DNA from: a virus
Direction: 5' to 3' (one strand)
Length of the DNA stretch: 23,337 nt
IMG/VR virus record: IMGVR_UViG_3300010885_019974
Span: 1-23,337 of that record
Made by a program: the position numbers and the translations under genes. Below, one piece after another: positions 15,177 through 23,325 of the stretch. Every line of letters begins with the position of its first letter. Positions within the stretch are counted from its first letter, which is position 1. The notes under the pieces are model-generated. The model was not told where the DNA came from. It searched no databases and saw nothing but the letters and a program-made list of their open reading frames with translations.

Positions 15177-15416
15177 ATGTCAAAACGAACTACAAGTGAC
15201 GATATTGAATCAGCCATGAAAGATTTCTATGAAACTAAAACTCATGAAATTGAAGATACTGATTGTGGGATTCTCCTAGATATTAATGGTAATCTAAAAT
15301 CATTGTTCGGGCCGGATGAAATGTTCGCTGACCCCTCTGAGTTAATGCTAAAACTATTTGAGGTTTTAGGCATAAATGACCCGGATAGGTTCCAACCATC
15401 ACATACCATACATTGA
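15177..15416 (+). CDS. Small acidic protein
   Basis: The 79-residue acidic protein starts MSKRTTSDDIESAMKDFYE after a clear AGGAG ribosome binding site. It has a hydrophobic C-terminal helix (SELMLKLFEVLGI) and no recognised motif. It stands alone between the lysis genes and a large terminator hairpin. The AT-rich stretch upstream (15127-15170) may hold a promoter, but no consensus is clear. Confidence 0.7.
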   Translation: MSKRTTSDDIESAMKDFYETKTHEIEDTDCGILLDINGNLKSLFGPDEMFADPSELMLKLFEVLGINDPDRFQPSHTIH

Positions 15417-15427
15417 GGGTGAAAAAC

Positions 15428-15478
15428 AGGCAGATTTCTAGCCTTTGTTGTCAAAAAACAACGGAAAATCTGCCTTTT
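15428..15478 (+). terminator. Compound hairpin terminator
   Basis: AGGCAGATTT (15428-15437) pairs with AAATCTGCCT (15466-15475), followed by TTTT. A second small hairpin (GTTGT with ACAAC, around 15447-15462) sits inside the loop. It ends the 15177 unit just before the next promoter. Confidence 0.75.
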
Positions 15479-15503
15479 AGTTGCGAAAAAACGACTGTTT
15501 CGG

Positions 15504-15532
15504 TTGACAGTACCAACATACAGTGTTATAAT
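15504..15532 (+). promoter_or_regulatory. Perfect-consensus sigma70 promoter
   Basis: TTGACA (15504-15509), 17-bp spacer, TATAAT (15527-15532): both hexamers are full consensus. The predicted start at about 15539 coincides with the ATG of the GIY-YIG gene. Confidence 0.85.
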
Positions 15533-15538
15533 TTCTTT

Positions 15539-15865
15539 ATGGAAATGACGAAAAGCACTCGCAAGCGCCGCAATGATACCAACCATGCAGTCTACTGCAT
15601 CACTAATACTGTTACCAACGAACAGTATGTTGGTATCACTGTGTGCGGTCGCCAAGTTGAAAAGGCCCTGAAGGTCCGTGTTCAAAAACATATCCGTCGT
15701 GCATTGACTGAGAATAAAAACTGGTCACTGTGCGAATCTATTCGTGAGTTTGGTGTAGAATCATTTACTTACGGCTTGCTGGAAGTTGTTCGTGGTAGGG
15801 CTGCTGCGCATGTTCGTGAACGGGCATTGCTGTATGAATTCATTCCTGCATTGAATTCCCACTAA
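15539..15865 (+). CDS. GIY-YIG endonuclease, freestanding
   Basis: The 108-residue protein is read from the ATG at 15539 (MEMTKSTRKRR). A longer frame upstream would run through the promoter and terminator and is rejected. AVYCITNTVTNEQYVGIT is the GIY-YIG core (here VYC and YVG). It is followed by the basic helix KHIRRALTENKNW with a catalytic-type Arg, and by RERALLYEFIPALN, which carries the metal-binding Glu. Small freestanding GIY-YIG nucleases in T4-like phages cut competing or host DNA and often act as homing endonucleases. Base composition is more GC-rich than the flanks, consistent with acquisition. The mRNA appears leaderless because the promoter start falls on the ATG. Confidence 0.85.
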   Translation: MEMTKSTRKRRNDTNHAVYCITNTVTNEQYVGITVCGRQVEKALKVRVQKHIRRALTENKNWSLCESIREFGVESFTYGLLEVVRGRAAAHVRERALLYEFIPALNSH

Positions 15866-18652: not shown

Positions 18653-18808
18653 ATGACACTGATTTATGATGATTACAATGTTTGTTGGGTATGGGTTGAA
18701 AAGAACAACCATGACGATGAACTAAGTCCGCAATTTGATACACAAGAAGACGCTATGTTATGGCGCACAAGGATGATTAACATCCTTAAAGGTGCTAAAA
18801 ATCAATAG
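18653..18808 (+). CDS. Small 51-residue acidic protein
   Basis: The frame runs from ATG 18653 to TAG 18806-18808. It starts MTLIYDDYNVCWVWVEKN and ends MINILKGAKNQ. It follows the previous stop by 5 nt and fills the gap before the next promoter. Aromatic strands followed by a helix (QEDAMLWRTRMINILKG) look protein-like. Function is unknown. Confidence 0.65.
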   Translation: MTLIYDDYNVCWVWVEKNNHDDELSPQFDTQEDAMLWRTRMINILKGAKNQ

Positions 18809-18821
18809 GGTAAATTGTCTA

Positions 18822-18874
18822 TTGACACAGCAAGAAAATAGAAGTATAATCAACTCACGCTACTTTCATGTAGC
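18822..18874 (+). promoter_or_regulatory. Perfect-consensus sigma70 promoter with 5' hairpin
   Basis: TTGACA (18822-18827), 17-bp spacer, TATAAT (18845-18850). The predicted start is near 18857. A hairpin, GCTAC (18859-18863) with GTAGC (18870-18874), lies at the very 5' end of the mRNA. An AAAGGA ribosome binding site precedes the ATG at 18896. Confidence 0.85.
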
Positions 18875-18895
18875 ATTTAATTAAAGGAAATACAA

Positions 18896-19144
18896 ATGTC
18901 ATTCACTACACTAGTCACAACGCAAAACCAATTTTTAGAACAGCATCTTCGTGGTACCGGTCGTACTCTAAGTGCCCGTCAAGCGGTTTCGTTGTATGGT
19001 ATTAAGAATATTCGTGCCCGTATGTCTGAAATGCGTCAAGCAGGGCTACGAGTAACTCGCACTACTAACACGGAAGGCCGTAGTACATATCGTATTAGTG
19101 AGCGTTCAGTAAGCGGTAGCCGTGCTATCGTTTTTGCTCAGTAA
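18896..19144 (+). CDS. Small HTH-type DNA-binding protein
   Basis: The 82-residue basic protein has a helix-turn-helix-like core (LSARQAVSLYGIKNIRARMS, residues 24-43, then EMRQAGLRV) followed by a wing-like strand pair (TRTTNTEGRSTYRIS). This resembles the winged HTH modules found in small phage regulators. It sits alone between a full-consensus promoter with a 5' hairpin and a strong terminator, so it should be made in quantity, probably early. Its codon use is more GC-rich than its neighbours. Role as a transcription regulator is inferred from the fold. Confidence 0.75.
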   Translation: MSFTTLVTTQNQFLEQHLRGTGRTLSARQAVSLYGIKNIRARMSEMRQAGLRVTRTTNTEGRSTYRISERSVSGSRAIVFAQ

Positions 19145-19161
19145 TATCAGTATTATTTGAT

Positions 19162-19192
19162 GATAAAAGGCTACTTAAAGTAGCCTTTTATC
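19162..19192. terminator. Bidirectional terminator
   Basis: A 14-bp perfect stem, GATAAAAGGCTACT (19162-19175) with AGTAGCCTTTTATC (19179-19192), has A- and T-runs on both sides. It lies between the convergent genes at 18896 (+) and 19198 (-), so it can stop transcription from both. Confidence 0.9.
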
Positions 19193-19197
19193 TTTGA

Positions 19198-19407
19198 TTA
19201 CCCGCCTGGTATTTCAATGACAGTCTCTATAGAGTCACCTACTTCTATAAAGACACTAGGTCCTACCACATCTTGAACTGTTGCTACCATATCAGTAATT
19301 ATAGTTGCTGTATTACCACCAAACACTTCTGCATCAGTTCCTACTGCATCTAGTGCTATTAGTTTGCTAAAATTTATTAGTATTGTTGTTTTCGCTAAAT
19401 TTGGCAT
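19198..19407 (-). CDS. Only leftward gene: small hypothetical protein
   Basis: The 69-residue protein is read leftward from 19407 (MPNLAKTTILINFSKLI), which has GGAG 8 nt upstream; a longer frame from 19425 is less likely. It is acidic and strand-rich (TATIITDMVATVQDV, FIEVGDSIETVIEI) with no recognised motif. Support comes from the ribosome binding site, a GATAAATA promoter motif with a 5' hairpin on the same strand, and the shared terminator at its 3' end. A single reversed gene in a rightward array suggests a mobile single-gene unit. Confidence 0.65.
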   Translation of the reverse strand: MPNLAKTTILINFSKLIALDAVGTDAEVFGGNTATIITDMVATVQDVVGPSVFIEVGDSIETVIEIPGG

Positions 19408-19448
19408 TATTGTTTCTCCGGTCATAATGAGTATTTGAATAGTTGATG

Positions 19449-19480
19449 GGAAATTTCTTCTTTCCTTAAATCTATTTATC
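19449..19480 (-). promoter_or_regulatory. Leftward late-type promoter and 5' hairpin
   Basis: Read on the minus strand, GATAAATA (19480-19473) is followed 7 nt later by a hairpin, GGAAA (19465-19461) with TTTCC (19453-19449). The layout copies the two plus-strand units at 5228 and 6185. Confidence 0.5.
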
Positions 19481-19489
19481 TAAAATTAA

Positions 19490-20020
19490 AATTCAGGGCA
19501 TCAACCCTTCCATCATTAAAGCTAGCACAGGCAATTAATATGTGCCCTAAACCTGGATCAAGGATCACAGGGACGGAATCTGCGTGATGGCAGAGAACTC
19601 AACTACTACCCGTAAGGATGAAGATCAGATACGCCTTCGTAAAACTGATTTAGTTGTTTGAATAGGACGATATATTATAAGGCTAAAGATTGCGGCACTG
19701 TGAAAAAGATACAACCGCAAAACTGTGTGCTCTCGCTAGCATTGGTTCACATAGTTTCCGTTATAAATGAAATCTAGGATAATGGGTACCGGATAACCGC
19801 CCATGTGTTTTATTACAATTCCTTAATGCTAGTGGTGAAAGAACTCAGATGAAAACTTTCTTATTTTTTCCTGGCAACAGGAGAAATATAGGTTCCGAAT
19901 CTAGATGAAGGGGTACACAAACACCCCCGCATTGTTATTGTATGAAATTGTGATGAGCGTAAGCGAAGAACGAGTGAGCAAAAGCTCACTCCCATCTATC
20001 TTCCTCATGTAAATAGATTA
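19490..20020 (+). ncRNA. Candidate large structured RNA in a 600-nt gene-free gap
   Basis: No plausible gene is visible between 19408 and 20045. Many helices are. AGGGCA (19495-19500) pairs with TGCCCT (19543-19548). TTGCGG (19690-19695) pairs with CCGCAA (19715-19720). AACTGTGTG (19721-19729) pairs with CACATAGTT (19748-19756). ATGGG (19782-19786) pairs with CCCAT (19800-19804). TCCTG-GCAA-CAGGA (19869-19882) is a GNRA hairpin. GGGGT (19910-19914) pairs with ACCCC (19923-19927). GAGTGAGC (19972-19979) pairs with GCTCACTC (19984-19991). CTAGCATT in a hairpin loop (19736-19743) pairs with AATGCTAG (19825-19832), a pseudoknot. Size and style recall the ornate phage RNAs (ROOL, GOLLD), but I cannot confirm either. 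The strand is assumed from the downstream gene. No clear promoter is seen. Confidence 0.6.
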
Positions 20021-20045
20021 TGTCTTTTATAAAGTGATTACCGTA

Positions 20046-20861
20046 ATGAAAAAATATGTTGTGTCATTAATTACTGCACTAATTGTACCATTGACTTATA
20101 GTCAACCAAATTATATTGGTTCCTATGCACTATATAGCTATGAATCTAAAAGCTATCTTGTTCAACAGGATCGTAAACAAACTAAATCAATAGCTAGTAT
20201 TACAAAGTTATTCACTGCAATTACTATATTGGAAAGCGGTGTTGACTTAGATGAAAAAATTAAGGTCAATGGTAAAAGCAATGGCAAAGTACCTTCTCAA
20301 TCATTAATGTCTAGAAAGGATCTTCTTAGGGCAATGATTATAAGTTCTGATAATAAAGCAGCCGAATCACTAGCTAATAACCATCCAGGTGGTTTTGATA
20401 AGTTTATCATTGATGTTAATGCCTATACCGCAAATCATTCACTATATAATACTAATTTGACTGACAGCACTGGACTATTATCAACTAATACAAGTAATAC
20501 ATCCGACTTAATAGAGTTTTTGTATCTTATTAAAGATAATCCCATCATTAGAAGTATCGCAGCAGAAAGAGTAGCTGTATTAAATTTGGCTAAAGGGAAA
20601 AAGACTATAAAGATTAATCTACATAATACAAATCCCGATCTCTTTGTTTATGATAATATACTCATTAGTAAAACTGGTTTCACTAATGCTGCTGGTAGGT
20701 GCTTGTTAATGCTGGTGGAAAAGAATATTGAAAAATATGCTGTTGTTATTCTCGGTCAACCCAATATTAAAACTCGTAGCAAATTAGTTAATACACTATT
20801 GCATATAGAAACTGAAGCAGAACCAATTTTAAAGATTACTTCTAGTATAGAATTTTATTAA
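20046..20861 (+). CDS. Periplasmic D,D-peptidase (S11/PBP7 type)
   Basis: The 271-residue protein is read from ATG 20046; a GTG at 20034 is less likely because it would precede the signal peptide. MKKYVVSLITALIVPLTYSQ is a typical Sec signal peptide, so the enzyme acts in the periplasm. All three penicillin-binding motifs are present: SxxK (Ser51-Lys54, SITK), SxN (Ser101-Asp-Asn103, SDN) and KTG (Lys209-Thr-Gly211). This is the S11 D,D-carboxypeptidase/endopeptidase family, which trims or opens peptidoglycan cross-links. It is close to the length of PbpG-type endopeptidases. No strong ribosome binding site is visible. A phage copy could remodel the wall during infection or help lysis. Confidence 0.88.
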   Translation: MKKYVVSLITALIVPLTYSQPNYIGSYALYSYESKSYLVQQDRKQTKSIASITKLFTAITILESGVDLDEKIKVNGKSNGKVPSQSLMSRKDLLRAMIISSDNKAAESLANNHPGGFDKFIIDVNAYTANHSLYNTNLTDSTGLLSTNTSNTSDLIEFLYLIKDNPIIRSIAAERVAVLNLAKGKKTIKINLHNTNPDLFVYDNILISKTGFTNAAGRCLLMLVEKNIEKYAVVILGQPNIKTRSKLVNTLLHIETEAEPILKITSSIEFY

Positions 20862-20872
20862 TAAATAATATA

Positions 20873-21199
20873 ATGATAAAACTAACTGATATAGCGTTGG
20901 AAAAAGTAAGATTAAATCTTAAAAAACGAGGTAGAGGTATAGGAATCAGAGTGGGAGTTAAAACAACAGGGTGCAGTGGTTTAGCCTACGTATTAGAATA
21001 TCTAGATGATAATAAGTTTGATCCTAGCTGTGATGTAGGTGTATATCCGGACTTTGTTATAAAAATATCAAATAAAGATAGAATTTATTTTAAAAATGTT
21101 ACCCTAGATTGGGTTAAAAAGGGATTGAATGAAGGATTTGAATTCATTAATCCAAATGAAATCGCCCGTTGTGGGTGCGGAGAAAGTTTTAAAATATGA
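20873..21199 (+). CDS. A-type Fe-S carrier (IscA/HesB family)
   Basis: The 108-residue protein begins MIKLTDIALEKVRLNL and has the three A-type cysteines: Cys34 (TTGCSGLAYVLEY) and Cys100/Cys102 (RCGCGESF). It would carry iron-sulfur clusters to client proteins in the cytoplasm. Length is normal for the family, and it appears complete. HesB-like genes are known in T4-like aquatic phages. It overlaps the next gene by 4 nt. AATAAATA (20860-20867) lies just upstream, but too close to the ATG to be its promoter. Confidence 0.9.
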   Translation: MIKLTDIALEKVRLNLKKRGRGIGIRVGVKTTGCSGLAYVLEYLDDNKFDPSCDVGVYPDFVIKISNKDRIYFKNVTLDWVKKGLNEGFEFINPNEIARCGCGESFKI

Positions 21200-23251: not shown

Positions 23252-23325
23252 GGGTTTGTAACTTAAAAGTAAAGTATCGGACTTTTAATCCGACTAAGAA
23301 GGAGCGTTACCTTCCAGACCTACCA
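23252..23325 (+). tRNA. Atypical tRNA-Lys(UUU) cloverleaf
   Basis: The 74-nt element forms a full cloverleaf. The acceptor stem is GGGTTTG (23252-23258) with CAGACCT (23315-23321, two G-U pairs). The D stem is ACTT/AAGT. The anticodon stem TCGGA/TCCGA surrounds loop CTTTTAA, with anticodon TTT and U33. The variable region has 4 nt. The T stem is GAAGG/CCTTC. The 3' end is ACCA with CCA encoded. The D loop (AAAAGTA) lacks the GG pair, and the T loop (AGCGTTA) lacks the usual TTC core, so the normal elbow contact would be missing. It may be a degenerate tRNA, a decoy or a tRNA-like part of a larger RNA. Confidence 0.55.

Follow-up and report, generated by a model that had tools for sequence, protein, structure and literature searches.

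Sequence comparison shows that the motif catalogued in Rfam as RF01718 (Polynucleobacter-1) is one end of a much larger, widespread and mix-and-match phage RNA, and the catalogue entry is drawn too short. A minor Rfam entry thereby leads to a large phage RNA family, with relatives in hundreds of environmental viral contigs, and to another RNA, unrelated to it, that occupies the same place in phage genomes. The copy described here lies in the window, by which we mean the whole stretch of DNA analysed, a 23,337-base IMG/VR virus record carrying T4-type phage genes, e.g., DNA ligase and exonuclease. It occupies a gap of ∼600 bases between a minus-strand ORF (19198–19425) and a peptidase S11 gene (20034–20861). 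The preliminary description of this DNA had noted that the gap is without plausible genes, and its sole ORF is indeed one of 44 aa on the minus strand. The same description proposed a large ornate noncoding RNA at 19490–20020, which is borne out by compensatory changes and a real pseudoknot; a structured RNA lies inside these limits, with slightly different bounds of ∼19510–19992.

Structure and extent of the RNA

A permissive scan of window positions 18800–20800 with the whole of Rfam (4227 families; matches to E = 10) matched the entire model of RF01718, a 141-nt catalogued motif without assigned function (Table 1), and gave no other convincing match. The sole paper naming Polynucleobacter-1 that we found in the open-licence literature rates both its being an RNA and its cis-regulatory role as probable, with sources in Burkholderiales and fresh water or estuary (Weinberg et al., 2010, Table 1; PMC2864571); no description of the full-length RNA was found in that literature. 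The Rfam model reaches neither the core with its two pseudoknots nor the twin 7-mers and the tail, whereas conservation and compensatory pairing continue for ∼330 nt past it, and we therefore place RF01718 as the 5′ domain of a ∼480-nt RNA.

Comparative evidence settles that this is a real structured RNA. In an alignment of 36 diverse relatives, a 73-pair structure spanning the whole RNA has 91.8% of its cells paired, and the covariation that the preliminary description had named as a check is present, with 47 of the 73 pairs changing on both sides. Two-sided cells number 310; shuffles give 88, and slid controls no more than 57. The slid controls are somewhat flattered, as the structure was derived from a single relative (L003) together with the alignment. 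Many of these helices are nevertheless top-ranked in a structure-free scan of column pairs in 72 sequences. The fold of the window sequence alone only modestly beats shuffles over 19500–20020 (z = −2.44), and the 3′ tail at 19893–20000 reaches z = −4.53.

The RNA is also under stronger constraint than its surroundings. A relative that is ∼93% identical to the window over the region (L012) differs by 0.7 per 100 nt in 19508–19660, by 0 in 19661–19718 and by 2.9 in the core, compared to 7.5 per 100 nt in the gene at 19198–19425; the downstream figure contains alignment-end gaps and was left aside.

Table 1. Parts of the RNA, in window positions.
Feature	Positions	Strand	Basis
Whole structured RNA	∼19510–19992 (ends approximate)	+	Conservation and covariation (36 relatives); constrained relative to close relative L012
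5′ domain, RF01718 Polynucleobacter-1	19520–19659	+	98.7 bits (cut-off 37); full-length match, model positions 1–141
Hairpin E, TTGCGG (19690–19695) with CCGCAA (19715–19720)	19690–19720	+	Covarying columns 19694/19717 and 19695/19716
Core domain, type A	19719–19892	+	Covariance model R1, built from 34 type A cores including that of the window: 81.2 bits, E = 3e-17
Hairpin F, 19722–19729 with 19748–19755	19722–19755	+	9/9 model pairs with two-sided changes
Pseudoknot 1, loop strand (partner 19825–19832)	19736–19743	+	7/7 pairs with two-sided changes, ∼97% paired
Pseudoknot 1, 3′ strand	19825–19832	+	As for the loop strand
Pseudoknot 2, 5′ strand (partner 19793–19797 in the helix H loop)	19760–19764	+	99% paired, 2/4 model pairs two-sided
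Pseudoknot 2, 3′ strand	19793–19797	+	As for the 5′ strand
Helix I (19776–19779/19820–19823) around helix H (19782–19786/19800–19804)	19776–19823	+	96–100% paired, two-sided changes
Putative docking repeat 1, GAA-CTC-AGATGAA	19841–19853	+	7-mer same as in repeat 2; lock-step evolution
Hairpin J, GCAA tetraloop, between both repeats	19865–19886	+	Sequence; hairpin at same place in relatives
Putative docking repeat 2, GAA-TCT-AGATGAA	19897–19909	+	7-mer same as in repeat 1; lock-step evolution
Terminal 8-bp hairpin M	19972–19991	+	Sequence and fold; hairpin closes the element in relatives

The helices that the preliminary description named were all recovered at their positions. They include the best-supported helix of the RNA, pseudoknot 1, in which CTAGCATT pairs with AATGCTAG. 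Hairpin J has the sequence CCTG-GCAA-CAGG at 19870–19881 and can be extended to ∼9 bp; it is 68% paired in the alignment, a count limited by alignment slippage at this place. Hairpin M (GAGTGAGC-AAAA-GCTCACTC) has no downstream T-run in the window. Pseudoknot 2, absent from that description, pairs GTTAT with ATAAC. The loop of hairpin E, CTGTGAAAAAGATACAACC, is similar to the loop of relatives that have no RF01718 domain.

Relatives and a second RNA at the same site

A pattern taken from the central part of RF01718 found 87 viral loci, and their alignment shows conserved blocks far past the model, while a pattern for the core found at least 120 loci, many of them with another 5′ domain. Model R1 also matches relatives without an RF01718 match (L118, 77.9 bits; L099, 53.2 bits; L092, 52.7 bits; L110, 52.6 bits). 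At least 306 loci carry a type A core with matching repeats, at least 236 of them when near-copies are left out, and a pattern test places an RF01718-like 5′ domain in at least 173 of the at least 306. By these comparisons, the 5′ domain is swappable.

Many relatives lie downstream of a SegE-like gene, and a scan of 68 SegE-like loci found the type A core ∼190 nt past the stop codon in 56. Eight of the other 12 have a different conserved sequence there, which we call type B. A type B pattern matched 84 viral loci, e.g., L218:2427–2900, and describes a conserved RNA of ∼400 nt (GGTTGGCGGGCC.GTTT.TAATACCGCTGTGGAAAAA) that has no match in Rfam and in which 28 of 68 predicted pairs have two-sided changes. 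It ends in the same twin-7-mer 3′ module and has nothing else in common with type A. Type B is a second large RNA, new to Rfam, at the genomic site of type A. Parts have been swapped between these RNAs, because mixed forms exist: L540 combines the RF01718 domain with a type A core, yet its 7-mer is type B-like, and in L502 and L505 a type B core follows another 5′ domain. A possible third group (type III: L128:390–1000, L146 and L159) has in common GGTACCGG.CAACCGCC and a later TATGG-like segment, without twin 7-mers; R1 aligns over only ∼20 positions of these loci, and we make no claim of homology.

No isolate was matched when RNA queries from six sources were compared by blastn with 50,697 phage records. 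The L524 query matched Dinoroseobacter, Roseobacter and Caulobacter phages and was dropped, the matching DNA being only a palindromic variable hairpin (TACGG..TAGCGTATA). Isolates with a SegE-like gene (ACP17, V45v66, Melnitz and C48C1) are without the RNA according to R1. Two pattern matches in GTDB genome contigs (L089 and L090) were judged, from their sequence, to lie in coding DNA and to have arisen by chance.

The twin 7-mers

The 3′ module contains two copies of a 7-mer, one after CTC and one after TCT, which are the same within an RNA and different between RNAs. In the window they belong to direct repeats of 13 bp, spaced ∼50–60 bp, that flank the GCAA hairpin. The columns 19847/19903, 19851/19907 and 19853/19909 covary by identity and not by complementarity. 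The two copies agree at the 7-mer positions in all 72 of the 72 sequences compared, and under parsimony all 37 of the 37 changes in these sequences fall on the same branch, to the same base, in both copies. Rare variants (ACGAAAT, ATGAAGA, TGGTAAT and GAATGAT) obey the same rule. Of 184 type A loci, 171 contain CTC-N7 followed by TCT with the same N7, as do 71 of 77 type B loci; the pattern has 0 matches in 1.55 Mb of flanking sequence.

Two short segments that stay identical, in lock step, through 37 independent changes form an unusual evolutionary signature. Ordinary covariation is a sign of pairing; this pattern instead points to one partner, common to both copies, that co-evolves with them. 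Gene conversion between the repeats was rejected because the CTC and TCT triplets stay distinct. No complementary column was found within the RNA, and no complementary position or sequence is enriched within 1.5 kb; a partner would therefore most likely be a phage-encoded RNA-binding protein. In the type B consensus fold, TCACA pairs with TGTGG and CAATCT with AGGTTG, so that CTC, TCT and some of their neighbors pair to the 5′ part. The triplets may thus tether the 3′ module, which is a prediction, since most of the pairs involved are invariant.

Proposed function, gene context and alternatives

On balance, we favor an autonomous, trans-acting structured RNA of ∼480 nt in which each of the two 7-mers docks one copy of the same partner. 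Such an RNA would be made by T4-type phages, mostly of fresh and estuarine water. It consists of a 5′ domain that can be exchanged (RF01718 in this copy), a core with two pseudoknots and a 3′ module that would offer two equivalent sites for docking. The comparisons establish its structure and limits, the strong constraint on it, the exchange of its parts and the lock-step identity of the 7-mers. Beyond these, it would have its own transcription, fold into a compact scaffold and act either as RNA alone or as a ribonucleoprotein particle; less confidently, the 7-mers may bind two copies of one fast-evolving, hypothetical partner. Autonomy is supported by the upstream ORF, which in the window and in L012 lies on the other strand, and by downstream genes on either strand, the same strand in 83 and the opposite in 77 of 160 loci as called by a simple ORF caller.

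A broader proposal, which we put forward tentatively and as plausible rather than probable, is a superfamily of modular phage RNAs. It would comprise two or more large, mutually unrelated bodies (type A, including RF01718, and type B) with one 3′ module bearing two copies of a rapidly changing 7-nt address, and 5′ domains and bodies would be exchanged between phages. Because the address must match in both copies, the RNA would serve as a scaffold holding two identical partners.

An unlikely alternative is that the RNA acts in cis, either as a 5′ leader ahead of the downstream gene or as part of the 3′ UTR of the SegE-like gene on its other side. The former agrees with the published rating (Weinberg et al., 2010; PMC2864571), and the latter could hold where a SegE-type GIY-YIG gene (PF19835) lies directly upstream on the same strand, as it does in 149 of 171 loci, with the RNA at its regular distance past the stop. 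In the window and L012, however, the upstream ORF is small and divergent, and the opposite strand of the downstream gene in nearly half of the loci makes the published guess, and with it the cis-regulatory label of RF01718, doubtful. These opposite-strand genes count against the inferred function and not against membership in RF01718. The T4-type late promoter motif TATAAATA also argues against a leader. It lies 3′ of the RNA in ∼50 cases, in a number of loci ahead of the downstream gene, but was never seen on the 5′ side within 420 nt of the core; many downstream genes therefore appear to have their own promoter. On the other hand, and against autonomy, a promoter candidate for the RNA in the window at 19401–19428 (10/12) is no better than chance.

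Same-strand downstream genes often start like MKIxELIxE, a commonality that would fit a cis-acting element; these starts presumably resemble T4 capsid-targeting sequences. Window ORFs starting at 2978, 4025, 6487 and 7870 likewise have a common N-terminus of this kind (MKVKDIIRE, MKILEVLTE, MKIVELLNS and MRVREIIVE).

We give little credence to a distant relative of ROOL or GOLLD, beyond the reach of Rfam, that multimerises into a cage. Like these, the RNA is phage-encoded, large, ornate and pseudoknotted, and a constant 3′ with a variable 5′ part is also a feature of GOLLD (PMC12286853). The likeness, which the preliminary description had raised without calling it established, gained no support from Rfam: neither these models, nor those of HEARO and group I introns that it had named for a check, nor OLE are among the matches in 18800–20800 to E = 10. 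At ∼480 nt, the RNA is also shorter than the 659-nt ROOL and the 800-nt-plus GOLLD, both often near tRNA islands according to a 2025 paper (PMC12286853). ARAGORN found 0 tRNA genes in 60 scanned sources and so no adjacent tRNA array, a contrast that is soft because the same tool missed the window tRNA found by Rfam at 23252–23322. HEARO (HNH endonuclease-associated RNA and ORF) is similar in that many relatives here adjoin a nuclease gene. This nuclease is, however, of the SegE GIY-YIG and not the HNH type, and the window copy has none beside it, its neighbors being a hypothetical ORF and the peptidase S11 gene.

The identity of the 7-mers could also reflect a DNA-level cause, e.g., a sequence that the adjacent SegE-type nuclease recognizes or uses for recombination, so that modules are swapped, which we regard as slightly less credible still. 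The SegE-like neighbor, the spaced direct repeats and the visible exchange of modules would suit such a site. The window RNA, however, keeps its repeats with no SegE gene beside it (a sub-threshold SegE-like match lies 3.6 kb away), the CTC and TCT triplets differ as they would not after conversion, and compensatory pairing within the same element makes selection at the RNA level evident. An intron-like or self-cleaving ribozyme, which a compact pseudoknotted core with many invariant bases might suggest, is very improbable, as the RNA lies between ORFs and interrupts none, and no group I, group II or ribozyme family matched in the Rfam scan of 18800–20800 to E = 10.

Returning to the surroundings of this probably autonomous RNA, several features of the window are worth recording. 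A perfect sigma-70 consensus promoter (TTGACA-17-TATAAT) at 18822–18850 on the plus strand stands ahead of a small winged-helix gene (18896–19144), which ends in a strong terminator-like hairpin at 19162–19192. Positions 20873–21199 encode an IscA-like iron-sulphur assembly protein, adjoining the peptidase S11 (D-Ala-D-Ala endopeptidase-like) gene. The window tRNA, on the plus strand 3.3 kb from the RNA (Rfam, 52.9 bits), is probably Lys UUU, because its anticodon loop is ACTTTTAAT. Relative to the window, L012 carries a 542-nt insertion (L012:3315–3856), possibly mobile, that adjoins a SegE-like GIY-YIG ORF (window 15413–15865).
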